DNA of 64,000 bases. Source: Siniperca chuatsi (taxonomy: Eukaryota > Chordata > Actinopteri > Centrarchiformes > Sinipercidae). Location: contig NC_058063.1 in NCBI RefSeq assembly GCF_020085105.1, positions 6,420,501 through 6,484,500 of the forward strand, written 5' to 3'. Positions 38,944 through 60,872 of the stretch are shown one piece after another (within the stretch, counting starts at the first letter, position 1; each line of letters starts with the position of its first letter). A model generated the notes under the pieces. It worked only from the letters and a program-made list of their open reading frames with translations, had not been told where the DNA came from and did no database searches. The translations under genes and the position numbers were made by a program.

Positions 38944-41344
38944 TCAGCTGTACTGCCTCACACTGGAGTACACACATTCACTCTGGGTGTTGTTCATCTG
39001 TCTTCTTGATCTGTTGGCCCCGTGATCCCTTATAGCAGCGTAATGAAGGGTCTCTGTGTCTTGACATAACTGGTAACAAAATATAAAATGGTTATTCACT
39101 ATTATAAAAGATACAGATGAATCCTTCGTGTCCACTAATTAACAGAACATAAAATTAAACAATATTGTTAACACTGGTCAACAAAACATACAATTGTCAA
39201 GTTGTCAATGTAACTTATGTTTAAGGGTTGTCAAAGATTAGACACCTGCTGACAGGAAATAAAACATAAAGATATTGCTGTGCTCTTAAACTTCATTTAC
39301 TTTTCAATAGAAAATGATACTTACCACTGTATTCGGAGTAGAAGTTGCTGAAAATGTTACAGTAGACTCTGTTTGTGACACACAAAAGTCCTTTTTATTC
39401 AAATGCAATATGCACTCAATACTTGCTGTCAGCTTCAAAGAGTAACAATTACCTGTACATTGGCAGTTTCTTTTGTTCATCATGCACACTGAGAAAGCCA
39501 GTAAAACAACCAGGATGGTGGTGAATGCCAAAGTTGCACTCAAGAAATACACCAAGACAGAAGTGTCCACCTCATCTGTGGAGCCAGACACCAGGAGACA
39601 TTACAGAGCTTTAATTTTTTTTCCCCTGCTTAATATCTTCATTAAAGGATAGGTTTGGATTATTTCAAGTCTATCTTAAAAGAATACTGGCATGCTCATT
39701 TGTACATTGAAAGGGTTATTGGTCATTTTTGCTCCTACTGGCCACAAAGAGTTTCTTTCCTAAAGCGATTCAATGTAAGTAATAGGGGACAAAATCCACA
39801 GTCCTCATTATGTGAAAAAATGCATTCTAAAGTTGAACTGAAACTGGGATGAGGCCTCAGCAGTCTGAGTTAGAGAAATCAAGTGGGAATCTTCCAATAA
39901 ATACTCCAGGTGAAAGACATATTGGTCAACGGTTCACAGCCAGTGAAGAATCCTTCCTGGCACGACTGCTGTAAAAAATAGGGGACAAAACTCCCCATTT
40001 ATCTTCCAATATTAGTCCTTTTAGAACAAATCCCCTGTTTGTGTTTCCATGGAATTTGTTTCCTCGCTGAGCTGCGGAGAAGAGATGCTTGGTGGAGGAA
40101 TGGAGGTATGTTGCCAGGATGCATATTCCCACACGCAACTGCCAGGAAAAAGATATCCACTTGATTTGACTAACTCAGAATTATGAAGCCTCATATTAGC
40201 TTTAGCGAAACCTTGGAGTACATATTTGCACAAAACAAGGACTGTAGATCTATCTCCCGCAGTGGAGTTGTACCAGGAAGGAATTGCTTCATGGCCAGTA
40301 CAGACATAAGCAATGATTACAGTGACCAGTAATTCCTATTCGCATGTGTTGTATTTAAAAATACAAACCTATCCTTTAAGAAGTTATCATCCTCTACTAC
40401 TATTTATCAAATGAAACAACTTCTGCTAGAATGTTACTTACCTTCAAAGTCCAGCTTGGTCCCGTTTCCAAACAGTATGTGTCCACATGAGACAACAGCA
40501 CAGTAGTAGGTCCCAGCATGAGAAAGATTCAGACTCGTCAGTGGCAAGTTGTAGAAACAGGTGTGTGTTTGTGTGTTGGGTTTCCTCTCACACTGATCAT
40601 TCCTGCCTCCATGGGTGTACATGAGTCCTGGATGAGATTCTTCAGAGTTTCTGAACCAGTAAACGCTGTGTTCTCCATCACAGGTTCCAGTGTGTACTGT
40701 ACAGTTCAGAGTCACAGAGCCTCCTGGCTGGATGGTCTCAGATGCTGACTGATGGACCGAAGCTTGGATATTCAAACCTGAACCCTTTACACTGATAGTA
40801 GTGCCCTCGTAAAATTCAAAGTTGTAAAAATTGCTCCCTACACAGTAGTAAGTAGCGGAGTCTGAAATTTGCAAATCTGAAATCTTCAAGTGATTTTTCT
40901 GTTTTTCAGTATCCAATGAGAAACGTGGATTGTCTTTAAATTCATCATCAAAGGTGCCGTTATCATTATGTCTATATAATGTTGACACTAGCTTTGGTTT
41001 CTCTCCCAGAGTTTGCTTATACCAGTAAAGCATCACTGCTACATTATCTTCACAGAAGCATTGCAAAGTCACACCTTCCCCAACATTAGCTGATTTAAAA
41101 TGTAATGATGATTGTTTTAAAGTTGTCATATGAGCTGAGGAGAAAATGAAGAGACAAAGCAAATACACAAGTAATTTAAGGCTAGTATGTTGTAATGATC
41201 TGTATTACAGAATGCATGAAAACATGTTATAAGCACACTTAAGGTTATAGTTTAAAGTAAACAGCAGACAGTAGCAAAACACAACTTACCCATATTCGCC
41301 ACGAACAGACATGTGAAATACAAAGCAAAGTTTGGAGGTGGCAT
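38944..41344 (-). CDS. nitr: Inhibitory NITR with V and I on one exon, gene G (346 aa)
   Basis: Exons: 41344-41290, 41134-40442, 39575-39453, 39368-39325, 39069-38944; sum 1041 nt, one frame. The leader is MPPPNFALYFTCLFVANM. The single 693-nt exon carries the V domain (LQCFCED, WYKQTLGEKPKL, DSATYYCVGS, a J-like FYEGTTISVK lacking FGxG) and the I domain (NCTVHTGTC, VYWFRNSEE, YYCAVVSC, FGNGTKLDF). The helix is VLVYFLSATLAFTTILVVLL, about 256-276. The tail has LHYAAI (tyrosine about 315, a full ITIM) and CVYSSV (about 339, YxxV with Cys at -2). It is the most diverged V of its subfamily yet has nearly the same I domain. A TTAA-flanked MITE enlarges the intron before the helix exon. Confidence 0.85.
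39642..40379. mobile_element. TTAA-flanked MITE in an NITR intron
   Basis: TTAA at 39642-39645 and 40376-40379; inside these are inverted ends AGGATAGGTTTG and CAAACCTATCCT. The interior has GGGGACAAAATCCACAGTCC, shared with a second copy at 51785-52130. No transposase; it is probably mobilised by a piggyBac-type enzyme (inference from TTAA). Confidence 0.8.
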
Positions 41345-41409
41345 TGTGCTTCAAATGCTGTGATGAATGAATTGAATCTTTATACGTTCTCCACTCTTCA
41401 CAGAGTGCT

Positions 41410-41423
41410 TGATTGGCCAATCA
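41410..41423. promoter_or_regulatory. Palindromic CCAAT element of gene G
   Basis: TGATTGGCCAATCA, a perfect 14-base palindrome with CCAAT on both strands, 66-79 bases before the ATG. Confidence 0.5.
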
Positions 41424-41429
41424 GATTGA

Positions 41430-43265
41430 ATCTCCTATTTTGGAAACAGCCAACACCAAGAAAGCAATCTCTGGTGTTGTGAGAGACATTTTTAGCAACC
41501 AGGAAAGGCTTAACGGTCATATACAACTGGAAATATACAGTAACAAGCTATATTATACACTGGGGTCTACTATACATGTAAGAGCATGCAGGGTTTGACA
41601 CGTGAAAGTGTGTTCACATAGATACATACTTAGCTGACCAACAGTCAGAAGGGAATCATTTTCGTGATTTAGCAACACATACAGCCTACAAATCTGGCAA
41701 ATGAAAATAAAAACTAACTTTGAAAAACAAAAAGAAATTCACAAAACTGAATGCGTGCCAAAGTTGTGATCAATAATAAATTGGCATCTGTACATAAAGG
41801 TGCATGATGTTCATCCCAAATCGTGATGACATGGTGATGACATTTAAGACATTTGTGTGTCTTTTTTCTGTGTGAGCTCCTGCAGACACCAAATTATTTC
41901 TCACCGTTATCTGAGCCTGGAAACACTACAATAATTGAGTTGTTCTATACTTTATAATACATAATAGGCAACTGAATCAAGTAGTGTATGGTGTGTGATC
42001 ATAAGGAAAATCTAGATCCTTGGATCATAAAATCTAAGGAAAGCTTCACTCTGAAGAGAGTACTTCTTAACGTAAGATGAAACTCTGCCCTCACATCACA
42101 ATGTTAACCATTGAGTCCTTTCCTGGTGAAGGCGTGCATTTCCCATTTCTGTACATAGCATGTTATCTACATTTAAGATATGACCCTAATTTCACACAGC
42201 TGCCCTTTTAAAATGACTTGTCTTCGCTCTTGGCTTCTGTCTGAGCTGTTATACGCTGTGGCCTGGAGGCCACAGGCCAGTCTTCCTGTGTTAGCAAGCT
42301 AGGACTTAAGTTTCCACTAGCGGAAACCTGTACACTGAAGTTCACACCTTATTCACCACAGGAGTCAAAACAAGAATCAAAAGCCCCCCCCCGCTGACAT
42401 TTCTAGGTTAGAAGAAGGTATTGATAGATCCGAGGGGATTTTTGAGCATGCTCTGTCTATGTCTGCATCCAATGCTGCTATATTACAGCATTGTCTTTTG
42501 GTCTCCTCACTCCTCCGTCCTCCTGCCTGTGATCTCAGCGCGCCATCTTGAAGGACACCTCGAGGAGCGAGGAGACAGGAGGCTTGCCGGAGGAGCAATG
42601 AGCTAGGATACGCCGGTGTATCCTTTGCGGAAGGCTTTTTGGCACGTGTTGTACACAAGAGGGGTGACACACTGGAATATACAAACCATGGCAGGAGCAG
42701 GACTCTACGAGTGATCCTTTTGTATTCACAAGTTGTATTAATGACTATAATAATGAAGATGATCAAATACGCGATCAAACTTCCTGCCCCTCACCGTTTG
42801 TGTAGTTGTTGTTGCTGTTCTAACCGCATTCCTTAATGACATTTCACCTTGATATTATGTTTTTATCAGCTACACCCAATTTAACTGCTACTGTATAATC
42901 ATGACATGTTTACAAGTGCAAACAGCTGCTAACATCACATTATATCAACAAGAACATTCTCTTCTCAGCACTAATTTGCAGTATTTCATGTTGTCATATA
43001 GTCTATTGCCCATTATGTTGTCTGCAAATGTCATTCCAACAGCACAGTCCTGTGAGGACAGTTGCAGCTGGGGCTGTGGGCTGCATTTGAGATCAAATTT
43101 AATTAGTGTGTTTGTGTGTAGGCCTATATGATATACTGTAACCATATATCACATATATACTGTATATCCCTCAATCATATATATTATATAGTGTATGTCA
43201 CTTTATTTGTATAATACTTTTCATACCAACATTTGTAGTCCTTCACATAAAATATATGAAGCTAT

Positions 43266-43296
<31 letters not shown>

Positions 43297-45480
43297 TAAA
43301 TTAAAGAAAAAGTATGACATCCGTACATTCTTGTCACATTCTTTGACTAATATTTAAATTTGTTTGATGATCTGAAACATTTAACTGTGACAAACATGCA
43401 AAAAAATAAGAAATCAGGAAGGGGGCAAACACTTTTTCACACCACTGTATAAGTTGTCACTGTAACACTGTTACAATCCTCTGACAGAGATCATAAAATA
43501 CAGCGGTAGGTAAAACCATAGGGCTATAACAAAACAATGGACAGATGATGCAGCTGTGTTACACAACGTTTTTTAATTGACGGCGCTTTAAAATGACGGC
43601 TCCGAAGCAAGGATATCTCATTTCATTAAATGCCTGTTGCCTCGCTGCTCTTTTCTCGAGTCTCTTCCTCGCCTCTTTCGCCGCATCTCTTGTGGGAGGG
43701 ACTACGATGGGAGGGGTGGAACGAGGAGACGAATCGAGGCGGTACAAGTTGAGGAATGAGAAAGGCCTAATGTTACGGTGGTTGCTGTGTATAGCCCATA
43801 GACTGTATAAAAATAAGGTATAGCCGCTGTGTTTCTGGTTAACAGCACCGTGCAGGGCAGGTGACAGGTGTGTTTACAGTGTTTGTTCGTGCCGGAAAAG
43901 GGAAAATTAGCATTTCCACCAGGGTGTCATGTTTACATCACTGCCAATCAGAACCGGAGCCGATAAATACCCGTGACTACAGCAGAATCATTTGACCCAG
44001 GAGTGAATGCCAATTGTACCCTTTCCCACTGAAGACAAAAGCCAGATGTTAGCGGGTGTTAGCGGGTTTTTAGTCCAGTGTAAAAGGGTATAATATTCTT
44101 TTTTTGTTATTTGCAGCATTGGGCAATGTCACTTTTGCAACTTACTACTCACTTCATTCTGTTATTAGTCATAAATAGCAAACTTCATTCTTCAACAACA
44201 AACATTTTCTGTCCCAGGTGATGTGCACACTGTCCACACTCCTTTGTGAAGCAAAATGTAAATACTTTCACAATCATTACTTATGTTATTTTGTCAACTA
44301 CTGTTCACTCCCATGTCATGTTGTTTCGGTTTTATCTGCTGAAGTTTTGAGATATGCATCTCTGTGATTGGTGGTGCTACTGTACCCCAATACAATGGAG
44401 ATGAATATAATTTGTTTGTGTTGCTAAAAGCTTTGAAAATTTACATTTGATATTCCACAGACCTAGCTGTGAACAATGTTTATTGGAACTTCTTTACACT
44501 GAAGAAATAGTCCCCATTGCAACACTCACAGTGAGGTGTGTGAATTTTTCTAACAACATTGTTTTTGGAAAAACACTCTGCTGACGCTTTTATTCATTAT
44601 TTTAAGCTTTGTAAAGCACAAATGATTTTCTTTCACAATACGGTATTCACTCTATATTGGAGAGGCAGATATCTCAAAGGTTTGGCACATTAAACCAAAA
44701 CCGGACACTACAAGGGTTTTGTGACAAAAAATTGTTTTCTGTTTTGGGTGGAATGGCCCTTTAAAACTAATGAGGATTCTTAGTTGCTGTACAGTTACAG
44801 CATACCTGGTCAGACCACAAGACCTTTGTAACACATTCAATTATTCTTGAAGAAACACTTTCATTTTCAACCTTTTTCCCCCCACCTATTAGTCACAAGA
44901 GGAGCAAGACCTCCACAATACTGGCCATTGTTCTGTCTAATGTTGTAGCCAATTACAGGAAATTAGGTTTATTCTGTCTTTCATTGACTTCTGACTTTTA
45001 CAACTACTTTAAATAACTTGACTCAGCAGTCGCCTTAATGCAGCAGTCAAATGTCATTTAAAAACAACGATATCAACATCTTAAGTATGCCAGACAAATT
45101 CAGACTCAGCAATGCATTTGGTTATTTGTTATAGAGCACACAGGCCCAAGAATAAATGTGTACTGAATTCTAACAGTTTATTATTTTCATGTTCCGATAG
45201 AATGTGTAATAATCCACTGACTGACCTTTTGCCAAGTACCACAGCACAGCAAAATCTACAGTATGTCACATCGTACAGCACCACAAAAATATAGTAGTAG
45301 TAGTAAAAAGGAAGTGCTGCATTTAAATTCAAGAATACAACTAACAAAAAAACATTGCCATTGCTTAGTCCAGAGTAAGCTGCAGCAATCAATGCAAGAT
45401 ATTTACAACCCATTGCAGGTAAGCTTGCTGGTAAATATGACCATCACTGAAAATCTCACTATAGATTTGGCTGCAAAGAT
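41430..45480. other. Long stretch without a recognised gene
   Basis: Bases 42440-42680 and 43560-43830 are GC-richer blocks (GCGCGCCATCTTGAAGG; ATGACGGCTCCGAAGCAAGG) that look transposon-derived but match no family I know. A (GT)n lies at 43271-43296 next to AT-rich TATA repeats at 43125-43200. The rest is AT-rich with no coding signal. Confidence 0.5.
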
Positions 45481-45500
45481 GTGAAGTTACTGAGTGCAGC

Positions 45501-45506
45501 TTTAAT
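45501..45506 (-). terminator. Polyadenylation signal of gene K
   Basis: Minus-strand ATTAAA, 138 bases past the stop at 45644. Confidence 0.4.
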
Positions 45507-45643
45507 TATAGTCACGAAGAAATGCCAAGCTCCAGTGGCTGACTTGACGATAAAGAGCTCTTTGGGCATATTTTAAACTTGTTTATATACCACTAAACAG
45601 GAGATATAGGTACATTAGATTGTAGCAAGGCTTTCTTACTCCA

Positions 45644-47809
45644 TCAGTCTTCTTCCTCCCTGGTTTGTCTGCAGTCCCAAGACGAAACGTCTTGGTTCTG
45701 TTGACAATATCTGATGTCAGAATAAACTACAGAGTCTCCACTGCATTTCACTGTAGCTTGTCTGGGGGGTGGGAGTCTTCTGGGGGCTGAACACACAGCT
45801 GCATAGATAACTGCATCACTAGTCTGTGAGAAATAGAAATAATTAAGACTTGTTCGTATGCTTAACATAGAAAGAAGAAATGCAAATCAAACAAAAAGAT
45901 CACACACAGCTAACATATGACAGTGTTAGCTGTGGTAGACTGTGGGTGCTGCGACAAACTATTACCTGATTGCCTTCAAAAGATCCATCAGTTGCCTCTG
46001 AAGAAACAATCAAAGATAACTACAGTCAATTCCAGTTACTGCAAAATGTAACAGAATGTGGATCTTATTCTGCTGCAGATATACAGCTGATCAATACACC
46101 ATGTTTTAAATACCTGTGGAATCTTTCCTCCGACTCTTGCAAAGTGTCCATATAAGAATGAGTGTCACAATTCCAAGAATGATGTTTGACAGCATCAATG
46201 CAATAACAGTTGGACTTAGTTCAGCTGGCTCGGTGTCTGCGTTATACAGAAGAAAGTTAACAAATAGTGCTTAATTTAGTTAGTTATTTGACAAACAAAC
46301 AAATGTATTCTGTTACAACAAACTGTACCAGATACCTGCCTCCACCCAATACATCAGGCCAGTTTTCTAAGAATGCTTCCTGTTGCAGGATGTAACAGGA
46401 AGCTAACCCCTAAACCCTGACCCTAACCATGACCCAATTAAGTGTTTTTGTTCCCTAGCCTTAACCATACGTCAACCTAGTTTATTTGACATAACCACAA
46501 TCTTTACTTAACCATGATGTAGTTTCCACGGATAATTGCAGAAGCTGGAACCAGGGAGTGTTTAGTATTTTTGCTTTGAAACGACTTAAACTACTAATTG
46601 ATTATCAACATAGTGGCTGATTATTTTTCTGCCGATCGACAAAAAGATTTGTAGCATCGTTCTATACCAACGTTCTTGTCTGGTGATCGGGTTGAATACA
46701 GTAAAAGTGAACGTGGATTTGTTAGTGGGGCTGAAAGCACTGTCAAATTCCACAAATGTGTTATTTAAAAATCAACACTTGTTAATGTTGGAAACTTATC
46801 TCTGTCTATCTATCTGATCTATTTATCATTTATATTATTTTCTTAGAATTGGAAGCATTTCATAGTGACAGTTACTGTCTTACTGTGAATATTAATCCTG
46901 GTCCCATTTCCAAACAGTATCTGTCCACATGAAGTCACAACACAGCAGTAGGTTCCAGCATCATCAGAGCTGAGGTTCCTCATGAGAAGGTTGCACACAC
47001 AGGTAGGTTCTCCGCTCTCAGTCCTCTGGCAGATGATGTTCTTACTTCCAGAGGAGTAAATCATTTCTGGAGCAGAATGATCCGAGTTCTTCAGCCACAT
47101 GACATCGGTGTGTTCTGCTGCACAGTGGCCAGTGTGAACAGAACAGCTGAGAGTCACGGAGTCTCCTGGCTGGACTGACTGAGACTCTGGCTGCTGGACT
47201 ACAGAGTCACTGATCATCTTTGCACCTTGGGAAGAAAATCAAAGAACTATGATTGTTAGCATTATATTCACAGTCAGCTGAAATTACAATGAGATGCAAT
47301 TTAGGTGCTTTAATGATAAAATACAGAAAATGAATACCTTTCACCATCAGAAAGGTTCCTGATCCAAATGTAATGTTGTTTAAGTACATTACTCCACAAA
47401 AGTATGTTCCAACCTCCTCCCATGTTGTTGCAGATATGGTCAGATGACTGCTGAATTTGTCAAATTTTAATGAATAACGATGAAGAAATTCATCAGGAAT
47501 TATACTCCGATTATAGTATGAATCAAATGCTGCCACAAGCTGTAGTCTTTTCCATGTAGTGAATTTGTACCATACTCTTTTTTTCAATTCACTCTGTATG
47601 TGACATTCAATAGTAGCTGAGTCTCCGAGGTTCGCTGTTTGGAAAGAAACAGGCTGAGAGATGTCACTGAACTGTGCCACACCTGAAATATACAGACAGG
47701 ATATAATCAGCTTTGTGTGTGAAGACGCTCATGAAAAGATTCCATGAGTGAATTTTTGTTACTCACACAAAGACCAGAGCAGGAAAACATTCACAAAGTA
47801 CATCATCAT
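45644..47809 (-). CDS. nitr: Inhibitory NITR with V and I on separate exons, gene K (354 aa)
   Basis: Exons: 47809-47767, 47682-47338, 47225-46884, 46236-46114, 45997-45966, 45823-45644; sum 1065 nt, one frame. The leader is MMMYFVNVFLLWSLC (three ATG in a row; the first was chosen). The V domain has IECHIQS, WYKFTTWKRLQ, VGTYFCGVM and J-like FGSGTFLMVK. The I domain has SCSVHTGHC, WLKNSDHS, CVVTSC and FGNGTRINI. The helix is TVIALMLSNIILGIVTLILI, then CKSRRK. The tail has AVIYAAV (tyrosine about 302) and SVVYSDI (about 329), both ITIMs, and ends with an acidic extension (CRQTREEED) absent from gene F. The intron before the helix exon holds an unnamed repeat near 46330-46600. Confidence 0.85.
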
Positions 47810-47922
47810 CTTGTCTGCTTCTCTAGTCCTGCTTCTTCTCCACAGTAGTTCTGACCTACTGAAGCAACGGAACACGTATCAGATTCACACACTCCTACCT
47901 TCGGCTACATCTGTCAGGTCTG

Positions 47923-47927
47923 ATTGG
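47923..47927 (-). promoter_or_regulatory. CCAAT box of gene K
   Basis: Minus-strand CCAAT in TCTGATTGGTTCAT, 114 bases before the ATG. A second ATTGG lies at 47955-47959. Confidence 0.45.
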
Positions 47928-47999
47928 TTCATTGTCCTCACCCTGCAGAACATGATTGGCTGGTTCACAGTGAAGCAAAAAGCCCCTTCAGCATGGCCT

Positions 48000-48780
48000 G
48001 TTTTGATCAGTGTCTGTGTCAGCAGTTTGAAATAGGTTGAAGATTTGTTGAAATACTCTCTCTGTGCTTGCTCTATGTATAGAGACAATAACTCAACTTA
48101 TATTATAACTTTATATAAAATGGCAACACACAGGTAAACCACAATGAGGTTGGCTAAATGGAAACTACAATTTAGTTGCATACTTTCCAGAAGAATGGAA
48201 GACCTAGATTTTTGTTGAATTATCAAAGGGATTGCACAGATTTCATGAGTCACACATAGCGTCCTCAAAATTACCATAATACTTGGTTGCACCAACCACA
48301 AACCTAGATGAGCAAAGTGGGGAACTACAACATTTTAGAAATTAAAAAAACTCAACCCAGTCACTCTGGATAATCCACAGAACAAACTGTATCACTAACT
48401 AAATTCCGTTCAACCTTATTGCATTGGGGTGGAGGCAGAAATCCTAGAGACAAATATTGCTAAACTGTGACAAATAAAACTATCTACATGGCTAGATCCC
48501 ATTAGAGGTAAACAAGGAATTATGCTTTTTGTAATTTGTGTGAACTGACTCTTTGATCATGCATTTTCTGATGACACATTCTTGTAAAGTCAGTCCTCTT
48601 TAGATTAAGATTAATACTATTCCTTAACCTTTACTAATAACTATTCTTTTGCATGCTTAGACTTGTAGGTTATTTCTCATACCATCCTCCTCTCACACAT
48701 GCTAAATCATAATTTCCTGCTGTCATTATCTGGGGCTGTCAGTTGTGATATCAGCTGTTCTCATCAGCTGGTCACATCTA
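48000..48780. other. Intergenic, no feature
   Basis: AT-rich DNA upstream of gene K. No domain or repeat recognised. Confidence 0.5.
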
Positions 48781-48784
48781 TCCA

Positions 48785-49620
48785 ATAGCGCATTTGGATG
48801 TTTTTGCTCAGAACAGGTTTCATGCATATTTATCTGAAAGAACACAGGCAATCTGTACTGATGGTCTCAAAACAACCTCCCTTGGGATAAATAAGGGGGT
48901 ACCACAAGCTTCAATGCTGGGTCCTTTACTATTTACACTCTACATAAACAATGTTATCACTCCAACGCATTTGGCACCAGCTCAAGAGGATAATTCCAAT
49001 TCCCATTTCCATGCCATCCATACACTTAATGGTACTGAAATTGAAATTGTCCAATCTTATAAATACCTGGGAATTTGGCTAGACAAGCATTCACTTTTAA
49101 ACAGCATGTGGAGCAACTGGCACAGAAACTAAAGATAAAAATGGGTTTCTTGTATAGGAATAAAGCATATTTCTGTCTTGAGGACAGGAAAATGGGTGTA
49201 CAGTCAACCATCAAGTCTGTGCCTGACTCTAGGGTTATTCTTAATTCTCATGCTGCTTGAATCTATTTAGTGATGTCTATGACGTCTCTGATGCAGTGTG
49301 TGCAAATTTAAAACCACTGCTCACCAGAGCAGATTTCAGGACTGTTTAACTCTAGTTACCCCCTTGCGTAAATACTGAACTTTGCACCTTATGAATTGAA
49401 TGAATTACATAGCATTTTAAAACTTTAAGCGTCTAATCCCACTGTTTTTAAACCTTGAATCTATTTAGTGATGTCTATGGTTGCCTCTGATGCAGTGTGT
49501 GCCTTTGTTTGTCAGGATGTTAGTTGTATTTATTTGTCCTTTTGTTATATGTGGCTATGTTTGTGTTTTATTTTCATCTGCTGTATTCAGGTCCCTCTTG
49601 CAAAATATGAGATGAGATTA
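48785..49620 (+). mobile_element. Non-LTR retrotransposon reverse-transcriptase fragment
   Basis: The ORF from 48794 gives FHAYLSERTQAICTDGLKTT, LGINKGVPQASMLGPLLFTL and YINNV (RT motifs around the PQG box, here PQA). After a deletion that removes the catalytic YxDD region it gives EIEIVQSYKYLGIWLDKHS. The downstream frame has KQHVEQLAQKLKIKMGFLYR. A 3' part with a duplicated phrase (GAATCTATTTAGTGATGTCT at 49259 and 49457) follows. It is a dead LINE of a CR1/Rex-type clade (clade inferred). Confidence 0.7.
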
Positions 49621-49649
49621 GCTGTTTAAATAAATATTATATACAGTAT

Positions 49650-50390
49650 GTCATAATTCTGTTGTATCAGGCTTCCTGGCCTCTGCTGTGCCCTATTGAC
49701 CCAGAGCACCCCTAAATTTCTGTACTCTAACGGAAAACTCACTTGCTCCCAGACCTCTCGGAGAATGATCAAGGCCCCTCACCTGGAAACCATAGAGCCG
49801 TTTAAATGAGTGGAACAATAATTTCTCAGTTTACTGGTTTCATACAATGCAGTTATCATGAAGAGCCCTTTCTTAGCTTTATTTAAAGAATTATTTTTAC
49901 TTAAATATTAAAAATTTTCACAGTTCACATTGTTCTTACTACACCAGCAGATAACATTTGTCAGGCACACGGCATCATTGAGCTAACTGTATTAGTTTGA
50001 TCCTTAAACAGTCACAAATACTTTATTATACTATAAAAGCATTTGGTTCCCTCTGTGGAGACATCCTGCTTGAAACCTCAAACACACAATGAAAAAAAGT
50101 ACAGATTGTCTTAATTATATGTGGATATGTATATGGCACTTCTTTTAGTTTTGCTGTCAGGAAATCAGTACAATAGCTAACAGTACCAGAGTCACTGAGG
50201 TAAGTCTGTTGCAACCTATTGGCACAGATAGAGTGGAAATCATTGCATGTCTTTGGAAAAGCTTGTTTGATGAGTTTATTGCAGGGTAAGGCTTTACTTT
50301 AATCATATTTAGATGAATTAATGTTTACAAAACTGGTTGAGGAAATACACTAATACACTAATAATGTCCTGTTATGCAGAGACAAAGACA
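49650..50390. other. Duplicated NITR 3' flank
   Basis: Bases 49665-49880 are similar to 52190-52370 and 57690-57910. Bases 50045-50100 and 50260-50330 are similar to 52580-52620 and 53020-53080. These are intergenic parts of the tandem NITR unit. Confidence 0.6.
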
Positions 50391-50404
50391 AAACATGTTC
50401 AACT

Positions 50405-51226
50405 CTACTGCTTTACACTAAAGTACACACATTCACTCCAGGTGTCATCTCTCTGTGTGATCTTGTTCTCCCTTATATCGGTGTGTAGGACATTAACTTC
50501 ATCTTGGTAACCCATAAGAAGCAGTAAATCACAATTTGGTACTGTGCAAGACAGAAATCAAAACCAATTCCACAGATGAAATTTTAATCATAATGGAAAT
50601 GGTCATCGAAACAGCAGATACCTCTGCATTGGTTGTGGAGGGAGCAGAAAATCCTGCACGAGACTCTGAAAAACAAAGAAAAACTTTCTTAGTATGTAAT
50701 GCTATGTTGAGTGAACAGACAATATACAGTAGATACCAACAGTACCAGATACATGTACAGTGGCAGCAGGTTCTCTTAATGAACATGCACACCAAGTAAG
50801 CCAGTAGAACTCACAGGATGGGTGCCAAAGCTCCACTACTGACATGTACTATGTCAACTATTGACATACTGTATATGTCAACTGTTAACATGAAAGTCCA
50901 TATCATATCCAAACCCAGACATTAGGAGACATTACATTGCATTCATTTGGCAGACACTTTTGTCCAAAGTGACTTAGAATAAGTGCATTACATAGCAGCT
51001 TTTGTTCATTTTAAGTTTGATTAGGGAGAAACCATAACCTTTTATCAGATGAGAGAAATTCTACTAAAAGTTACTTATCCTCATGGTCCAGCTTGGTCCC
51101 ATTTCCAAACAGTATCTGGCCACATGAAGTCACAACACAGAGGTCTCAGAGGTCTGGTCCTCAGATTCCACAAGTACATTTTTGTCACTTACACAAACAC
51201 AGGAAAACATTCACAAAGTACACCAT
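50405..51226 (-). pseudogene. nitr: Chimeric NITR wreck (F/K-type leader, G/H-type body)
   Basis: The leader exon 51226-51193 (MVYFVNVFLCL, donor intact) and its upstream sequence match gene K. Immediately below, at about 51140-51075, only the end of an I domain remains (CVVTSCGQILFGNGTKLD), so the V domain and most of the I domain are deleted. A helix-exon relic (about 50835-50752) has an in-frame stop. The next exon (50665-50622, ESRAGFSAPSTTNAE) is intact. The last exon (50512-50405) reads GYQDEVNVLHTDIR to a stop, with threonine where the ITIM tyrosine sits in other copies, and its acceptor AG is changed to TG. Not functional. Confidence 0.8.
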
Positions 51227-51339
51227 CAGCGTGTCTGCTTTAGCAATTCTGACTGATTGAAGCAACAACAGATTCACCAGCTTGTCCTATATCTGTCAGG
51301 TCTGATTGGTTCATCATCTGCACCAGCTTTGTGTTTCCA

Positions 51340-51780
51340 TTACAGATTTCATAGATAGTGAACCTCACTGTGTTGCATGAATGTGTCATCCTTGCTAGAA
51401 CCAACATGAATGACGTGAGCCAGGTGAGGTTCTGGGCTGCGGCCCAGACCTCCTGGACCTGGAGCAAAAAGGGTCAGTTCACCCCATGTAGGTCTATTGT
51501 ATCAGACCATTTTGGCTTCCTCTCTTTAGATTATGAGATATCTGTCTGAGTTTCTGCTGCCAGCCCAATACAGTGACGTTTATTGAGTTTATGTTGCTTA
51601 CATTTAAAAACAGTAAACCACAACATCTCTGTACAGAAGTAGTATCCTTATTACGCTTGATAATCCATACAAAAAACTGTCAACAGTTTCCAAAGACTAT
51701 TTGTTCAGATAGTAGAAATTAGGTCCACTGAAAACTGTTCACAGTGAGTGGGAAAGTCTCATTAACCTTGTCTTAATTAA
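51340..51780. other. Intergenic, no feature
   Basis: Bases 51360-51550 hold a short open frame with no domain. Nothing else recognised. Confidence 0.45.
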
Positions 51781-51784
51781 TGGC

Positions 51785-52130
51785 TTAAAGGATAGTTTAA
51801 CAATTTTCAAGTCTGTCACATTCACTTGCTCATATGTACACTGAAACAGTTTTTGGTTGCTGCAATTGTCCCTACTCTTTATACTGGCCATGAAGAGATC
51901 CCTGAATGTAAATGACAGGGACAAAATCTACAGTCCTCGTTCTGTGCAAAAATTAATTTGAAAGTTCAGCTGAATCTAATAGAGGCTTCAGCAGTCTGAG
52001 TTATTCAAATCAAGTCTTCCAAAGTTGTCTTTAAGTGTGAAATCCCCTCTTCGCGTTGCTATTCCTCCACTGCAGCTCAGCAAGGAAACACTGTCCAAGG
52101 ATACACAAAGATGTTTTTGTACCAAAAAGG
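51785..52130. repeat. Partial second copy of the TTAA MITE
   Basis: Starts TTAAAGGATAGTTTAACAAT and shares GGGACAAAATCTACAGTCCT and TTCAGCAGTCTGAGTTA with 39642-40379. The far inverted end was not found, so it is truncated or decayed. Confidence 0.65.
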
Positions 52131-52189
52131 GTTTAACTTGATTGACTAACACAGACATATTTTTCACGGGTTAATATTCTGTATTAAGG

Positions 52190-52620
52190 CTCCTGAACTC
52201 TGCAAAGCCTTCCTGTAATCTTATGCAAATGTGACTTCCTCCCAGACCCTTTCTGAGAATAATCTGAGGCGCTCTTACCTGGAAATCACAGAGCAGTTTA
52301 AAGGAGAATTGTGTCTCTCAGCATGATTTTACTGTTTTCCATACAACCAATTTTTTGTAAAGAACACCAATTAAGCTCGGTCCAGTTTTTTTAATCAGTT
52401 CTTATTTTACTCACCAAACTTCCCGATAACATTTTTGGTTTGTAGAGTGCACACACACATATTCTCAAGTTCAACGTGTTGCAGTAGCTCGACACACAGT
52501 ATAATTTGCATTGGCTGTATTAGTTTGATCACGAAAAGATCACACAGAATTTAATCTGATCTGCTATAAAAATTGTTGTTACACATTTTGGAGACATCCT
52601 GCATGAAAACACACAAACAA

Positions 52621-52662
<42 letters not shown>

Positions 52663-53020
52663 GACAAGAAGTGAAAATAGTTGTTAACATGAAAATGACC
52701 AAACCTTACAAAACCATCAATAGATTTTATTTCAACTGACCACATGGAAAATATATAGCTGTTTACTGCAGCTACTGATAGCTGTAGTCTGTTTGAGTAA
52801 AGACAATGATGAAAGCTTGGGTTTATGAAAATGTTAAATGTGCTTTGACAGGTTGTACATCTTCCACTGTGAACTGAATTCAGTTCAGCACTTTCTTACT
52901 TTATAATTGTGGAAGCCCTCAGTACTGTAGCTAATGGCACCAGAAACAGAGAAGTCTATTGCAACCTTTTGGCACAGAAATAGAAATCATTGCACTTTAT
53001 GTTTTCTCTTTGAAAAAGCT
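52190..53020. other. Duplicated NITR flank with CA microsatellite
   Basis: Bases 52190-52370 repeat the unit flank (see 49650-50390). A (CA)n lies at about 52624-52660. From 52761 on, the sequence is duplicated at 55066 onward. Confidence 0.6.
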
Positions 53021-54180
53021 TGTTTAATGAAATTACTGAGAGGTGAGGCCTTACATGAATCATTCTGAGGTAAAATCATATTTACAAAACTGCTCATGTT
53101 TCAGGAAAAGCAAAATGACACTTTTAGAGAGACGCTAAAGTGGTCACGTCTTATTTTGCAGAGAGAAAGATGTCCAGCTCTATTGCTTTACACTAAAGTA
53201 CACACATTCGCTCCAGGTGTCGTCTGTCTGCCTTCTTGATCTGTTGATCTTTATGTCTGTTAAAGCAATGTAATAGTCTTCTTTTTGGTAACCCTGGACA
53301 TGAGAAACAGTATTTTACAATGAGGCACATGGCAGAAATATAAACATTGTGCATTGAAAGTATTGTGCTATAAAAATGTGTTTGAGTGGTTATACAGTAG
53401 CTCATCTAAGAAGATAATACCTTTCTATTTGTTTTGGAGTAATCTACATATCTTGCTTGAGACTCTGAAAAACAGAACGAAACCATTACTACAATGCCAT
53501 GTTCAGCGAATACATGCTATAGACAGAAACAGTACCACTAACCTGTCCAAAGGCAGCTGTTTCTCTTGTTCATCATGCGCACTAAGAAAGCCAGTAAAAC
53601 ACTCAGGATGGTGGTGAATGCAAAAGCCCCATGCCAGAAATACACCAACACAAGAGACTCTTCCTCATCTGCAGAGAGACAGAAACTAGGAGACATTTGC
53701 AGCAGTGTTTTTTTACTCTGTGATCATCTTGTGTTTGTTTGATTGTTTGAGGAATTAATCATAACTATTTATCAGATAAAACAACTTCTCCTAGAAAGTT
53801 ACTTACGCTCAAAGTCCAGCTTGGTCCCGTTTCCAAACAGTATGTGTCCACATGAAGCAACAGCACAGTAGTAGGTCTCAGCATGAGAAAGATTCAGGCT
53901 CGTCAGTGGCAAGTTGTAGAAACAGGTGTGTGTTTGTGTGTTGGGTTTCCTCTCACACGGATCATTCCTGCCTCCATGGGTGTACATGAGTCCTGGATGA
54001 GATTCTTCAGAGTTTCTGAACCAGTAAACACTGTGTTCTCCATCACAGGTCCCAGTGTGTACTGTACAGTTCAGAGTCACAGAGCCTCCTGGCTGGATGG
54101 TCTCAGATGCTGACTGATGGACCGAAGCTTGGATGTTCAAACCTGAACCCTTTACACTGACAGTAATGCCCTCTGCCAAT
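52761..54180. repeat. Recent tandem duplication, copy 1 (partner 55066-56490)
   Basis: Bases 52761-54180 and 55066-56490 are nearly identical, covering the 3' flank, tail, stalk and helix exons and the I-domain half of the large exon. Beyond, in the V half, similarity drops. Confidence 0.85.
53023..53028 (-). terminator. Polyadenylation signal of gene H
   Basis: Minus-strand ATTAAA, 152 bases past the stop. The same place in the partner copy (about 55330) reads without it. Confidence 0.45.
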
Positions 54181-54713
54181 TCCAATATTATTGAAAAGCT
54201 ACTTGCACAGTAGTACGTAGCTGAGTCTGAAATGTGTAAATCTGAGATTTTCAAGTGATTTTTATGCTTTTCATTATCCAGTGTGAAGCGTGGATTGTTC
54301 TTGAATTCATCATAAAAAGTGCCATTTTTATTAAAAGTGTAGAAAGTAGAGATGAGTCTTGGTTTCTGTCCCAGAGTTTGCTTGTACCAGAAAAATCTTG
54401 CTACCACGTCACCTTCATAGAAACATCGCAAAGTTACGCTGTCACCAACATTAGCTGATACAAAACCACTCTCTTGACGAACTGATGAGATCAGATTAGT
54501 CATCTGAGCTGAAGTGACAGGAGAGACAAAGCAAATACACAATCAATTTAATGTGACAGTAAGTATATTATACTGAAAAATGATTAGAAGCAATGACACT
54601 TAGAGTGACCATACACTCTAAAAGATACAAATGGAGGCAAAAAAACACAACTCACCCATTTTCCCCAAGAACAAACATGCCAGATAAAAAACAAACGTTG
54701 GAGATGTCATCAT
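53180..54713 (-). CDS. nitr: NITR with V and I on one exon, gene H (347 aa)
   Basis: Exons: 54713-54656, 54508-53807, 53668-53543, 53464-53421, 53293-53180; sum 1044 nt, one frame. The leader is MMTSPTFVFYLACLFLGKM. The V domain has LRCFYEGDVVARFFWYKQTL, DSATYYCASS and a J-like LAEGITVSVK without FGxG. The I domain has NCTVHTGTC, VYWFRNSEE, YYCAVASC and FGNGTKLDF. The helix is VLVYFWHGAFAFTTILSVLL. The tail reads DYYIAL (tyrosine about 318) and CVYFSV (about 342): YxxL and YxxV are kept, but position -2 is Asp or Cys, so neither is a full ITIM. Signalling may be weakened. It is expressed if the CCAAT and poly-A signals seen are used. Confidence 0.83.
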
Positions 54714-54784
54714 GTTTGAATTGCTGACTTGAGTGAAAAGAATCTCGATACTTTCTCCACTCTTCACAGACAAGACTGTGTGTG

Positions 54785-54789
54785 ATTGG
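54785..54789 (-). promoter_or_regulatory. CCAAT box of gene H
   Basis: Minus-strand GGCCAATCA, 72 bases before the ATG. Identical placement in gene J. Confidence 0.5.
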
Positions 54790-55487
54790 CCAACCTGAAG
54801 TGACACTGTATGTCCTATTAAGGAAACATGATCACATGCTCACTGCAACATATAGTGTCAATTTTGGTTCTTGAGAAGACTCACTTGGTGAGATGTATAT
54901 GACAAACATAAAGGCTCCTTGACTTGACATTAGATTTTAAATCACCTAAATATAAGCAACTATACATCCACACCCATTGAACACCATATTGATCTTACCG
55001 ATGGACCATTTTCACACGGAAACTATTAAAATGTATTGCTAAGTGTGTGACACATAGTCACCATGTTTACTGCAGCTACTGATAGGTGTAGTCTGTTTGT
55101 GTAAAGACAATGATGAAAGCTTGGGTTTATGAAAATGTTAAATGTGCTTTGACAGGTTGTACATCTTCCGCTGTGAACTGAATTCAGTTCAGCACTTTCT
55201 TACTTAATAATTGTGGAAGCCCTCAGTACTGTAGCTAATGGCACCAGAAACACAGAAGTCTATTGCAACCTATTGGCACAGAGATAGCAGAAATCATTGC
55301 ACTTCATGTTTTCTCTTTTAAAAAGCTTGTTAAAATGAAATTACTGAGAGGTGAGGCCTTACATGAATCATTCTGAGGTAAAATCATATTTACAAAACTG
55401 TTTATGTTTCAGGAAAAGCAAAATGACACTTTTAGAGAGACGCTAAAGTGGTCACGTCTTATTTTGCAGAGAGAAAGATGTCCAGCT

Positions 55488-57023
55488 CTATTGCTTTACA
55501 CTAAAGTACACACATTCGCTCCAGGTGTCGTCTGTCTGCCTTCTTGATCTGTTGATCTTTATGTCTGTTAAAGCAATGTAATAGTCTTCTTTTTGGTAAC
55601 CCTGGACATGAGAAACAGTACTTTACTTACTGAGGCTCATGACAGAAATATAAACATTGTGCATTGAAAGTATTGTGCTATAAAAATGTGTTTGAGTGGT
55701 TATACAGTAGCTCATCTAAGAAGATAATACCTTTCTATTTGTTTTGGAGTAATCTACATATCTTGCCTGAGACTCTGAAAAACAGAACGAAACCATTACT
55801 ACAATGCCATGTTCAGCGAATACATGCTATAGACAGAAACAGTACCACTAACCTGTCCAAAGGCAGCTGTTTCTCTTGTTCATCATGCGCACTAAGAAAG
55901 CCAGTAAAACACTCAGGATGGTGGTGAATGCAAAAGCCCCATGCCAGAAATACACCAACACAAGAGAGTCTTCCTCATCTGCAGAGAGACAGAAACTAGG
56001 AGACATTTGCAGCAGTGTTTTTTTACTCTGTGATCATCTTGTGTTTATTTGATTAGCCAGTAACCATAACTATTTATCAGATAAAACAACTTCTCCTAGA
56101 AAGTTACTTACGCTTAATGTCCAGCTTGGTCCCGTTTCCAAACAGTATGTGTCCACATGAGGCAACAGCACAGTAGTAGGTCTCAGCATGAGAAAGATTC
56201 AGGCTCGTCAGTGGCAAGTTGTAGAAACAGGTGTGTGTTTGTGTGTTGGGTTTCCTCTCACACTGATCATTCCTGCCTCCATGGGTGTACATGAGTCCTG
56301 GATGAGATTCTTCAGAGTTCCTGAACCAGTAAACACTGTGTTCTCCATCACAGGTCTCAGTGTGTACTGTACAGTTCAGAGTCACAGAGCCTCCTGGCTG
56401 GATGGTCTCAGATGCTGACTGATGGACCGAAGCTTGGATGTTCAAACCTGAACCCTTTACACTGACAGTAATGCCCTCCGCAAACTCAAAAATAAATGTA
56501 TAGCTACTTGCGCAGTAGTATGTAGCTGAGTCTGAAATACGCAAATCTGTGATCAGCAAATTATTTTTTACCTTTTTCAGTATCCAGTGTGAAGCGTGGA
56601 TTGTTCTTGAATTCATATTTAAAAGTACCATATATTTCATACTTATAGAAGGTAGAGATAAGTCTTGGTTTCTGTCCCAGACTTTGCTTATACCAGTAAA
56701 GCCTTGCTGCATCTCCTTCATAGAAACATCGCAAAGTAACCTTGTCTCCAACATTAGCTGATATAAATCCACTCTCCTGATGAACAGATGAGGCCAATTT
56801 CAGTTCAGTTGTCTGAGCTGAAATGAAATGAGAAGCAAAGCAAATATGCAGTTTGTTTCATGTGATAGAGTTTAGTGCAATGAACACAGAAAATGATAAC
56901 TGATATTGAACATGATAACTGACTATACACTCTATAAAATAAAAATTGTCACCAAAAACATAACTCACCTATTTGTTCTAAGAAGAGACATGTCAAATAA
57001 AAAACTAATATCAGAGGCGTCAT
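55488..57023 (-). pseudogene. nitr: NITR, V and I on one exon, frameshifted (gene I)
   Basis: Exons: 57023-56969, 56817-56112, 55978-55853, 55774-55731, 55601-55488. The leader is MTPLILVFYLTCLFLEQI. The V domain is open through TLDTEKGKK and then meets a stop: a run of six A (56569-56564, minus strand) stands where paralogues have five. One base fewer restores NNLLITDLRISDSATYYCAS and the rest. The I domain, helix and tail exons are nearly identical to gene H. The CCAAT box is changed to CCAGT (57091-57087), and the poly-A ATTAAA present in H is gone. Together these argue for a real pseudogene, although a homopolymer read error could explain the frameshift alone. Confidence 0.75.
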
Positions 57024-58133
57024 CGTGTTCAAATTCTTGTGTCGAAAATATAGCCTTTCTCCACTCTTCTGACAAGACTGTGTTTGACTGGCAAACCACA
57101 GGTGACATCTATTGTCCTGTTAAGGAAACATGCTCACATGCTCACTGCACTTAAAATGTCAAGTTTAGCTCTTGAAAAAATAAATAACCACAGACATCCT
57201 CACTTGTGTAACGACATGTACTCACGCTGATCTCACTGATGGGCTGTACTCACTTTAAAGTTGTGGTTATTTTTCTTTTTCTAAAATGAAATTGATTTGC
57301 CCATTTGGTGTGATTGATCCAACATTTGCAGTCTTGAGTTAACATTAACAACAACATATTGGACAGTGGAGTTCACTTATTCTCAACCTTTGTCAATGAA
57401 TCATTATGTCAAGCAAATATCATACGGGCATAATTATTTAGTAAAATACACTAAGAATGCAGCATGGCGATCATTTGTTAGATTTCTCCTGTTACACTTG
57501 CTGATAACAAATGGCTCTTGGAAATGATGGTCCTCTGATAGATGGCTCAGCGATGAAGAGAACTAAAACTGTTAAGTGCTTTTCATTAACCTCCTCTTTA
57601 ATCCCTTAAAGTAATGACTAATACACTGCCTCATTTGTTTAAAACTATTGTGATCCCACCTCGGATTTGTTGCAGGCTAATCTATTATATCAGGCTTCCT
57701 GACATCTGGAGTGTTTCCTAACCCCTGAGCAGATCTTACCCCTACTTTACTCTAATCTGAAGCAAATTCACTTCAAGTCACTTCCTACCAGACCTTTTCT
57801 TAGAACGATGTGAGGCCCCCTTATCTTGAAACCACAGAGCAGCTTAAATGAGTACAATTGTAAATCTCTCAGCTATATTTTCCTGGTTTCATGTGGCGCC
57901 ATGTTTGTTAAGAACCCCTGTTAATAATAATACTATATACATAAATTGGTTTATATAGCACTTTTCAAAAACAAGTTTATATTGTGCTTAACAGTCATAA
58001 TAAACCGCAGATTATCTGAATATTCATGAATGAAGCATCCTGACTTGTGAGTTAATGTTGTCCTCACCACCCTAGTAGAAAAAAATGTATGGTTTGTGGG
58101 TGCACACACAATTATACACACATATTCTCAAGC

Positions 58134-58240
58134 AGCAAAGGGCCGCGGGCTGGACCCGAACCCGGGCTGCTGCAACAAGGGCCCAGCCTTGTACATGTCA
58201 CGCGTACTGTACCAGGTGAGCTACCGGGGCACCCCAGCAT
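58134..58240 (-). mobile_element. tRNA-derived SINE head
   Basis: The minus strand has an A-box-like TAGCTCACCTGGTACAG and a B-box GGGTTCGGGTCC at tRNA spacing, followed by CCCGCGGCCCTTTGCTGC. Fish SINE heads have this form. It lacks clear acceptor-stem pairing, so it is not a working tRNA gene. Confidence 0.65.
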
Positions 58241-59190
58241 TATTGAATTTGAGCTAAGTGTATTAGTTTGATCCCAAAAAAGATCCCAAAGGATTTTTTT
58301 CTGATCTACTTTAAAATCTGTTGTTTCACTCTGTGGAAACACCCTGCTTGAAAGCACACACACACAATGAGAAATCGTTTAGATGGTCCTACATATGCAC
58401 AGGACAAAACCATAGAGACATTTTATCATTACACTGTCGAACATGGAAACTATAGAAAAGAGTTTAGGTTTCAAGTACTCAATCAACACAATTATTACAA
58501 GTACTGATAGCTGTGATCGCTGTTTGAGATGACTCTACATATGTATTTGCATTAGCCGTCACTTTAAAAAAAAATCATTACACTTGCACTTTGCACTGCA
58601 GCCCTCATAACCTAATCTTAAACTACATTGTAAAATAAATGATGGTCTGTTCATTTGCATGTCTCCACTGCCACACTAAATGATAAGGTCACAGGTGATT
58701 CAGATGAGTAGTTGTGGTAATTTTACCTCTAAGGCAGTTGCATTTTACAAAGGCAGCAAAAAGCCTCACCTTTATCCAACATTTTGCAATCTGTGGAGTA
58801 GAGTTCAAAATGGATTCATATATTACGTCTCAGATGGTGAGTCGTATCCATTCAGCACGACTCACTGGTTTACTCCATTTTTCATCAACAAAGAACAATC
58901 AAAGAACAATATCCTACATTACTGATAAATCAATTGAGCAGAGTCACAGCGCATTTTAAGAACTCACTCCACTGTAGTACAAGGCATGCCCTGTTGCACT
59001 TATATACTGTGATTATTGAATTTGAATTTGGACAGATCATCAACAATTTAATGTTTTTCCCCATGATAAGTAGCAAGTAGCTAACAGCACCAGAAAAAAA
59101 AATGATGTAAGGTCATTGCAACCCATTTGCACAGAGAAAGTGGAAATCATGTACTTCATATATTGCCATTGTTAGAGCTTCTTTAGTTAG

Positions 59191-59196
59191 TTTATT
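59191..59196 (-). terminator. Polyadenylation signal of gene J
   Basis: Minus-strand AATAAA, 155 bases past the stop at 59351. Confidence 0.45.
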
Positions 59197-59350
59197 ACAA
59201 AGTAAAGCTTTAAATTAAACAGTTTTAGGTGAAATAATGTTGAAAAAATTATTCCTGCTTTTGAAAAAGACAAATTACAAATTACACTTTAAAAGACAGT
59301 AATGGGCTCATGTCCTGTTACACAGAGACAAAGATGGAATATGTCCAGCT

Positions 59351-60872
59351 TTATTGCTTTACACGGGAGTACACACATTCACTCCAGGTGTCGTCCCTCT
59401 GTCTTCTTGATCTGCTGGCCTTGTTCACCCTTACAGCAGCGTAATGGAGATTATCCTCATTTTTGTAATCCTAGCAATGAAATATCACAATATGGTACAC
59501 GACAGACATGAAAACCAATTCAACAAAAATTGTTATGATGTAAAATATATATTTAAATGGTAATAGAATTGTTAATCTCGAAAGAAAATACCTCTGCATT
59601 TGTTGTGGAGGAAGCTGAAAATCTCACGCAAGATTCTGAAAAACAATTTTAAAGCTGTGATTCTATAATGACATGTTCAGCAATTACATGCTGTAGATAC
59701 AAACAGTACCATTTACCTCTACATTGGCCGCTGTTTCTCTTACTCATAATGTACAGTGAGAAAGCCAGTAAAACACTCAGGATGGTGGTGAATGTCAAAG
59801 CGCCAATCAAGAAATACACCAAGACAAGAGAGTCTTTCTCATCTGCAGAGACGGAGACATTACACAGGAGATATTTTTAAAACGTTGTGTTCATCTTAAG
59901 TTTAGTTAGAGAGTAACCAAAATTATTTATCACATAAAACAACTTCTGCTAGAAAGTTACTTACGATTAAAGTCCAGCTTGGCCCTGTTTCCAAACAGTA
60001 TGTGTCCACATGAGGCAACAGCACAGTAGTAGGTCCCAGCATGAGAAAGATTCAGGCTCGTCAGTGGCAAGTTGTAGAAACAGGTGTGTGTTTGTGTGTT
60101 GGGTTTCCTCTCACACTGATCATTCCTGCCTCCATGGGTGTACATGAGTCCTGGATGAGATTCTTCAGAGTTTCTGAACCAGTAAACACTGTGTTCTCCA
60201 TCACAGGTCCCAGTGTGTACTGTACAGTTCAGAGTCACAGAGCCTCCTGGCTGGATGGTCTCAGATGCTGACTGATGGACCGAAGCTTGGATGTTCAAAC
60301 CTGAACCCTTTACACTGACAGTAATGCCCTCTGCCAATTCCAATATTAGTGAAAAGCTACTTGCACAGTAGTATGTAGCTGAGTCTGAAATGTGTAAATC
60401 TGAGATTTTCAAGTGATTTTTACCTTTTTCAGTATCCAATGTGAAGCGTGGATTGTTCTCGCATTCATCATAAAAAGTGCCATTTTTATTAAAAGTGTAG
60501 AAGGTATAGATGAGTTTTGGTTTCTGTCCCAGTGTTTGCTTATACCAGGAATATCTTGCTACCACAGCACCTTCATAGAAACATCGCAAAGTTATGTTTT
60601 CACCAACATTAGCTGATACAAAACCACTCTCTTGACGAACCGATGAGGACAGATCAGTCATCTGAGCTGAAGTGATAGGAGAGACAAAGCAAATACACAA
60701 TTAATTCAATGTGAGAGTAAGTATATTATACTGAAAAAATGATTAGAAGCAATGACACTTAGAGTGACCATACACTCTAAAAGATACAAATGGAGGCAAA
60801 AAAACACAACTCACCCATTTTCCCCAAGAACAAACATGCCAGATAGAAAACAAACGTTGGAGATGTCATCAT
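59351..60872 (-). CDS. nitr: Inhibitory NITR with V and I on one exon, gene J (349 aa)
   Basis: Exons: 60872-60815, 60666-59965, 59842-59717, 59635-59592, 59470-59351; sum 1050 nt, one frame. The leader MMTSPTFVFYLACLFLGKM equals that of gene H. The V domain (LRCFYEGAVVARYSWYKQTL, DSATYYCASS, LAEGITVSVK) is the closest to H. It has an added cysteine (YDECENN for YDEFKNN), which may be unpaired. The I domain matches the others, except its J-like end reads FGNRAKLDF where all others have FGNGTKL. The helix is VLVYFLIGALTFTTILSVLL. The tail has LHYAAV (tyrosine about 320, a full ITIM) and CVYSRV (about 344). It should be inhibitory. Of the H/I/J trio it is the one with an intact canonical ITIM. 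Confidence 0.85.

Follow-up and report, generated by a model that had tools for sequence, protein, structure and literature searches.

The 64-kb window of Siniperca chuatsi DNA analysed here (the whole stretch, representing one haplotype in a single assembly sequence) contains a predicted cluster of immunoglobulin (Ig)-domain receptor genes of the teleost NITR type. In four of these genes, all on the minus strand, a V-type and an I-type domain lie within one exon. We refer to them as G, H, I and J, the letters given in an initial annotation made from the sequence, and take as the joint between the two domains the first base of the TCA codon of SGLNIQ:

40442..41134, minus strand, fused V-I exon of gene G; joint at 40781; block homogenised relative to H at 40445-40794
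53807..54508, minus strand, fused V-I exon of gene H; joint at 54146; V resembling that of J, 3' part resembling gene I
56112..56817, minus strand, fused V-I exon of gene I; joint at 56451; V frameshifted by one base, I domain open; block relative to J at 56135-56478
59965..60666, minus strand, fused V-I exon of gene J; joint at 60304; block homogenised relative to gene I at 59988-60331

Three further genes, named P (28.9-30.2 kb, plus strand), F (34.7-35.5 kb) and N (46.8-47.7 kb) in our analysis, carry V and I in separate open frames. A Pfam scan of G, H and J returned two V-set stretches together with general Ig families in each (gene I was aligned as DNA only). The translated I domains contain six cysteines in G, H, I, J and P, with extra cysteines in F and N; six conserved I-domain cysteines are given as an NITR feature in the medaka NITR paper (PMC2442602). 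A J-like motif of the FGXGTXLXV type, which in NITRs closes V, I or both, occurs at the end of I as FGNGTKLDF or FGNGTKLDI in G, H and I, whereas gene J departs from it with FGNRAKLDF. All four fused genes also have transmembrane (TM)-like frames, with putative splicing, and last frames containing CVYSSV (G), CVYFSV (H and I) or CVYSRV (J), which resemble an immunoreceptor tyrosine-based inhibition motif (ITIM) without matching its consensus. In a PDB sequence search with gene J, the 60 matches listed of 11374 were by name antibody-derived or engineered binders. The predicted structure of the H ectodomain had a mean predicted local distance difference test score of 49 and was not used. According to PMC2442602, V and I share one exon in pufferfish and occupy two in zebrafish, with both arrangements in medaka. 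In gene P, the V frame reaches the same SVKG and then meets a putative splice donor at the point where the fused genes continue into SGLNIQ, indicating that the joint in G, H, I and J corresponds to an exon boundary of a relative.

The two halves of the fused exon differ sharply in divergence. The initial annotation had located this contrast at 40442..60666, which runs exactly from the last base of the V-I exon of G to the first base of that of J. The I block was 96-98.5% identical among the four genes and the V parts differed by 7-29%, with mismatches in I and V, respectively, of 14/391 and 90/340 for G-H, 16/391 and 101/343 for G-I, 14/391 and 95/340 for G-J, 6/406 and 68/370 for H-I, 10/406 and 26/373 for H-J, and 10/406 and 68/370 for I-J. 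The annotated pattern of homogenised I and diverged V domains is thus confirmed, with the qualification that V is similar between H and J (7% different). By-eye reading had put the difference between the I halves of G and H at about 4 of some 117 residues, and alignment gave 3 amino-acid differences.

The edges of the block were sharp. As had been proposed, no intron interrupts the SVKGSGLNIQ joint, through which the reading frame is continuous in all four genes, and the switch in divergence lies close to it, from 13 nucleotides (nt) upstream (G against the others) to 27 nt upstream (gene I against H or J). A two-rate fit placed the best low-divergence block at 40794-40445 in G (against H) and 56478-56135 in gene I (against J), with twice the log-likelihood difference reaching 119-184 for five pairs and 70 for H-J. 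At the 3' edge, the tight block falls 3-23 nt short of the end of the exon (for G with each of H, I and J, and for gene I with J), and weaker similarity of G to the others persists for ~40 nt into the next intron. In G-J and I-J, the block is an island: it is 96.4% identical in G-J, with 25-35% difference in the 5' flank, V and TM region, and 97.5% identical in I-J, with 18-27% difference in the same regions. The H-I and H-J tracts, by contrast, each run on to one side, H-I at ~98% identity through the tail exons to 52760/55064 and H-J at ~96% identity upstream to about 54900. Thus, the suggestion that conversion was limited to the 3' half of the exon stands for exchange of the I half but only in part for its limit, given the H-I tract through the tail exons and the intronic similarity of G.

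The contrast extended to silent sites and was not confined to amino acids. Synonymous divergence (dS) in V and I, respectively, was 0.77 and 0.08 for G-H, 0.82 and 0.08 for G-I, 0.69 and 0.05 for G-J, 0.42 and 0.03 for H-I, 0.11 and 0.013 for H-J, and 0.35 and 0.013 for I-J (V codons of gene I were counted in the frame of J, skipping gapped codons), and bootstrap intervals for the difference excluded zero in 6 of 6 pairs. Equal dS in the two halves had been named beforehand as the mark of selection; its inequality in all six pairs refutes selection acting alone and supports recent exchange of the gene conversion type. Fourfold-degenerate sites differed at 10/27 positions in V versus 1/50 in I for G-H, 9/26 versus 1/49 for G-J and 6/24 versus 2/48 for F-N.

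A no-exchange account, in which purifying selection acts on I and diversifying selection on V, finds some footing in these data. Comparisons of G with the others gave ratios of nonsynonymous to synonymous divergence (dN/dS) of 0.14-0.36 in I, indicating some constraint; between subfamilies, silent divergence was still lower in I than in V in most pairs, for which a somewhat slower I, or older exchange, is a possible reading; and V is the presumed ligand-binding part. However, silent sites in I vary freely between subfamilies (dS 0.52-1.24), which excludes a general lack of silent change in I, so that the ~9-26-fold higher synonymous divergence in V among G, H, I and J would demand a special synonymous constraint unseen in the wider comparison. 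The few changes left in I among young copies (silent/replacement 1/6 for H-J, 1/6 for I-J, 2/4 for H-I and 2/8 for F-N; small numbers) are unskewed towards silent ones, unlike the outcome of strong purifying selection, with replacements about as frequent as in the absence of constraint. In V, dN/dS was 0.30-0.56 in 6 of 6 pairs (gene-wide values, not single sites), contrary to the earlier alternative of strong diversifying selection on V. With V dN/dS below 1, diversifying selection is unneeded as the sole cause of V divergence, and silent-site divergence rules out purifying selection as the sole cause of the pattern. Selection without exchange is thus, in our judgement, extremely improbable.

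Gene I bears on the same question, as it has a one-base frameshift in V and has kept the shared I domain open. Provided that the frameshift is genuine and not of very recent origin, this retention fits copying better than selection at the protein level. The frameshift is accompanied at 56560-56600 by a stretch of six A, one more than in J, consistent with either a pseudogene or a sequencing error, and because of it gene I was omitted from the V codon comparisons between subfamilies, the six-gene permutation described below and the test of GC content at third codon positions (GC3). In that test, 5 of 6 genes had a greater GC3 in the I domain than in the V domain (p 0.003-0.03, uncorrected, and the genes are not independent). 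Plus-strand antisense frames of 85 codons are open in all four I domains (40491-40748, 53856-54113, 56161-56418 and 60014-60271). Their role as a constraint on silent sites in I was considered and rejected: when synonymous codons were resampled 2000 times, frames at least as long as the observed one arose in 888 draws for J, 464 for P and 722 for F, which is within chance expectation.

The genes with V and I in separate frames provided a second case, and a third, shorter one:

34705..35046, minus strand, I exon of the two-exon gene F, homogenised with N; exon ends deduced from GT/AG
46884..47225, minus strand, I exon of gene N (two-exon type), the partner of F; exon ends deduced from GT/AG
35141..35527, minus strand, open frame with the V exon of gene F; dS to N 0.48 over 110 compared codons
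47207..47728, minus strand, open frame with the V exon of gene N
28945..29382, plus strand, open frame with the V exon of gene P, apart from its I exon
29754..30224, plus strand, open frame with the I exon of gene P; patch in common with the four fused genes at I codons 8-41

Between F and N, in which an intron splits V from I, dS was 0.478 in V and 0.028 in I. The near-identical tract extends beyond the I exon by 21 identical nt into the upstream intron and 12 into the downstream intron, and is flanked by clearly diverged introns and V exons. In two separate subfamilies, then, tracts stop no more than a few tens of bases from the edges of the I domain, and the G-J, I-J and F-N blocks are each bounded on both sides by diverged homologous sequence. 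Gene P is inverted relative to G, H, I and J and has a patch in common with them at I codons 8-41; J and P differ at 1/34 third positions inside it and 34/71 outside. A scan gave p 0.0002 for the J-P patch, the lowest value possible with 5000 shuffles, and 0.009 for G-P third positions. The same scan found no third-position patch of gene F with J (p 0.998) or P (0.095), and a weak all-position patch between G and F at codons 94-104 (p 0.042).

We ran a home-made GENECONV-like permutation, distinct from the GENECONV program. Over six genes with 2000 shuffles, global p was 0.0005 for G-H, G-J and F-N, the lowest value possible, and third positions alone gave 0.0005, 0.0005 and 0.0015, respectively. 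The gene-conversion check that the initial annotation had called for was thus positive for these pairs in the six-gene version, whereas with G, H, I and J only, the I block went unflagged in 5 of 6 pairs.

Taken together, the sequence comparisons indicate that short, recent, non-allelic exchanges of the gene conversion type have very probably overwritten the I segment repeatedly between NITR-type paralogues, with V mostly left to diverge. Such exchange of I is apparent in at least two gene sets, the fused genes and F-N, in addition to the shorter patch in P.

Unequal crossing-over and tandem duplication alone offer another route, by which the I domains and 3' parts would be young duplicates whose V parts were swapped by crossovers, without conversion. 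Gene H offers material for this route: H and gene I share 1.4 kb to 52760/55064 and H and J share ~0.7 kb upstream, as crossover products or duplications would, and the H and I blocks lie in tandem, 2305 nt apart. A single crossover, however, leaves the I-J and G-J islands unexplained, as well as the F-N island between diverged introns, and the J-P patch links inverted genes. Crossing-over without inversion is hard between P and the four fused genes, pointing to conversion there. We therefore regard duplication and crossing-over as unlikely to be the whole explanation.

Gene H itself appears from its sequence to be a mosaic, joining a J-like front (upstream region, leader and V) to a back like that of gene I (tail and 3' flank), provided that the assembly is right:

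54174..54900, minus strand, J-like tract of gene H (upstream region, leader, intron 1 and V), from comparison of sites among H, J and I
52760..53878, minus strand, tract of gene H resembling gene I (end of the I domain, TM and tail exons, 3' flank), from comparison of sites among H, I and J

Counting only sites at which H matches one of genes I and J but not the other, H follows J at 187 and gene I at 21 sites at or above 54174, and gene I at 296 and J at 7 sites at or below 53878. Across the upstream region, leader and first intron, mismatches numbered 12/338 for H-J and 88/319 for H-I; in the TM region they numbered 1/246 for H-I and 46/222 for H-J. The H front at 54509-54900 has 15/392 mismatches to J, and V is 7% from J, with 18-28% difference from gene I over these front parts, whereas the back differs from gene I at 23/1042 sites over 52760-53806. 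Farther upstream than about 54900, H is ~20% different from J.

Topology tests agreed in part with this arrangement. The approximately unbiased (AU) test rejected the H+I grouping in V (0.0099) and the two groupings other than H+I in the TM region (0.0006 and 0.0011). In the I block, H+I was the best grouping, and H+J was rejected by the AU test (0.009) but not by the Kishino-Hasegawa or Shimodaira-Hasegawa tests. The first site that unites H and gene I by a derived change is I-codon 91 at 53878, and sites at or above 54174 are mostly J-like, which places the switch in H inside the homogenised block. Two sites in between, 54052 and 54015, were considered as J-like for H and set aside as private changes of gene I, uninformative on H. 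The switch may have arisen by crossing-over, conversion or both. An origin by block duplication followed by one crossover was also considered and may or may not apply: the two parts did not differ significantly in age (15/392 versus 23/1042, p 0.098), and the similarity of H to J drops beyond about 54900.

A mosaic of this kind might also arise as an assembly artefact, if near-identical I blocks had been mis-joined or polished together so that H is a false chimera or identity is exaggerated. A block of ~345 nt at 97-98% identity in four copies is a likely mis-join point, and a study of herring counts immune clusters including NITR among the blind spots of short-read screens (PMC11088111). Yet polishing would not, in our judgement, be expected to raise identity from some 75% to 97%, the window contains no N, the copies retain private differences, and the F-N and J-P exchanges are independent of H. 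An artefact therefore seems very unlikely as the source of the pattern.

Several results weigh against repeated exchange of I as we read it, in addition to the constraint on I and its lower silent divergence between subfamilies described above. When the GENECONV-like test was applied to G, H, I and J alone, it failed, as the I block did not stand out in 5 of 6 pairs: the fragments that reached significance lay in the upstream region, leader or V (G-H, p 0.0016; G-J, 0.005; H-J, 0.0002), and only the H-I fragment (p 0.014) begins at the I block. We attribute this failure to the near lack of variable sites inside the block. In the six-gene permutation, H-J had p 0.0085 with all sites and lost significance with third positions (0.40), and J-P was not globally significant (0.41; third positions, 0.22); the J-P patch had, moreover, been spotted by eye before it was scanned. 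H-J fourfold sites differed at 4/43 in V and 1/49 in I, which was not significant (p 0.18), and GC3 was equal in the two domains of gene P (60/120 versus 54/107). Of the topologies for H, the grouping IJ|GH was not rejected in V (AU 0.076), and none of the three groupings was rejected by the 5' flank alone.

In general thinking on such receptors, V recognizes ligands and I forms a stem. The shared I domain may likewise act as a stem here, with V as the ligand-recognizing part. If V and the introns are now too dissimilar for exchange to be efficient, tracts would be confined to I, and continued exchange would in turn keep the I domains alike. The I block could then supply the homology by which V fronts are re-paired with signalling tails. 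A bolder version would make the homogenised I domain a germline recombination pivot, in which conversion keeps I interchangeable, exchanges inside it re-pair V fronts with TM and tail backs, and the confinement of tracts in both subfamilies is a favoured feature, not leftover similarity. We put this forward tentatively and consider it doubtful; were it true, the cluster would shuffle recognition and signalling halves, as in gene H.

A close parallel to repeated overwriting of the I segment is found in protocadherins. These clustered paralogues likewise have a discrete boundary inside one coding exon, with a 5' part 57-80% identical and a 3' part over 99% identical; their authors also argue from silent sites, and converted regions have higher GC3, as does I in 5 of 6 genes here. 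Protocadherins differ in being adhesion genes with a boundary in the fourth or fifth extracellular domain (EC4 or EC5) and a tract of ~250-450 residues, whereas in the NITR-type cluster the tract is one Ig domain and is seen again in a subfamily whose V and I are split by an intron, and gene H is a mosaic of front and back. Hybrid chicken BG genes resemble gene H in that they are immune receptors whose 5' and 3' ends come from different lineages through mid-gene recombination; the middle of the BG genes has lost phylogenetic signal, whereas the middle here is a homogenised I domain and a single gene (H) is hybrid (PMC4046983). In ruminant CEACAM1 paralogues, which are also Ig-domain receptors, conversion acts on a particular domain exon in most paralogues, but the exon affected encodes the N domain (V-like and ligand-binding), not an I domain (PMC7042247).

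Other teleost NITR clusters, as described in PMC2442602, are alike in having V and I domains, single- and two-exon types and very diverse V domains. That paper stresses birth-and-death evolution and considers concerted evolution less likely as a primary force. The pattern here differs in the recent exchange of I domains, while V fits birth-and-death. A search by title in the open literature, with most subscription papers outside it, found no report of I-domain conversion in NITRs. The cluster thus exemplifies, cleanly and more than once, a mode of evolution that was already known, which qualifies the earlier view of NITRs and is not a new kind of system. Relative to the initial annotation, the mosaic structure of H and the homogenisation of F and N despite an intron at the joint are additions.

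Because V and I evolve differently within the same exon, V trees and I trees can disagree, and whole-gene orthology calls can mislead for such genes. Antibodies or probes directed at the I domain may also fail to separate them. Because the same domain is homogenised with and without an intron at its edge, the cluster also lends itself to studying how conversion comes to be restricted to a single domain.

The window contains further traces of related sequence. On the minus strand, 50408-51142 holds a decayed NITR 3' remnant, comprising the C-terminus of an I domain (CVVTSCGQILFGNGTKLDHE) and a last frame of ITIM-like type (DDTWSECVYFSVKQ), with an intact front absent. An additional copy of the upstream region and leader lies at 62012-62304, ~80% identical to H at 54658-54951, and no V or I match at E 1e-3 occurs between this copy and J. 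Open frames at 48749-49132 and 62606-63266 resemble a reverse transcriptase fragment and transposase fragments. Finally, the stretches at 12.9-17.7 kb and 23.4-27.7 kb form a segmental duplication (offset ~10.4-10.6 kb, 93-99% identical in the listed repeats), a region that holds single-Ig-domain matches at 9.8, 15.4, 17.5 and 25.7 kb.

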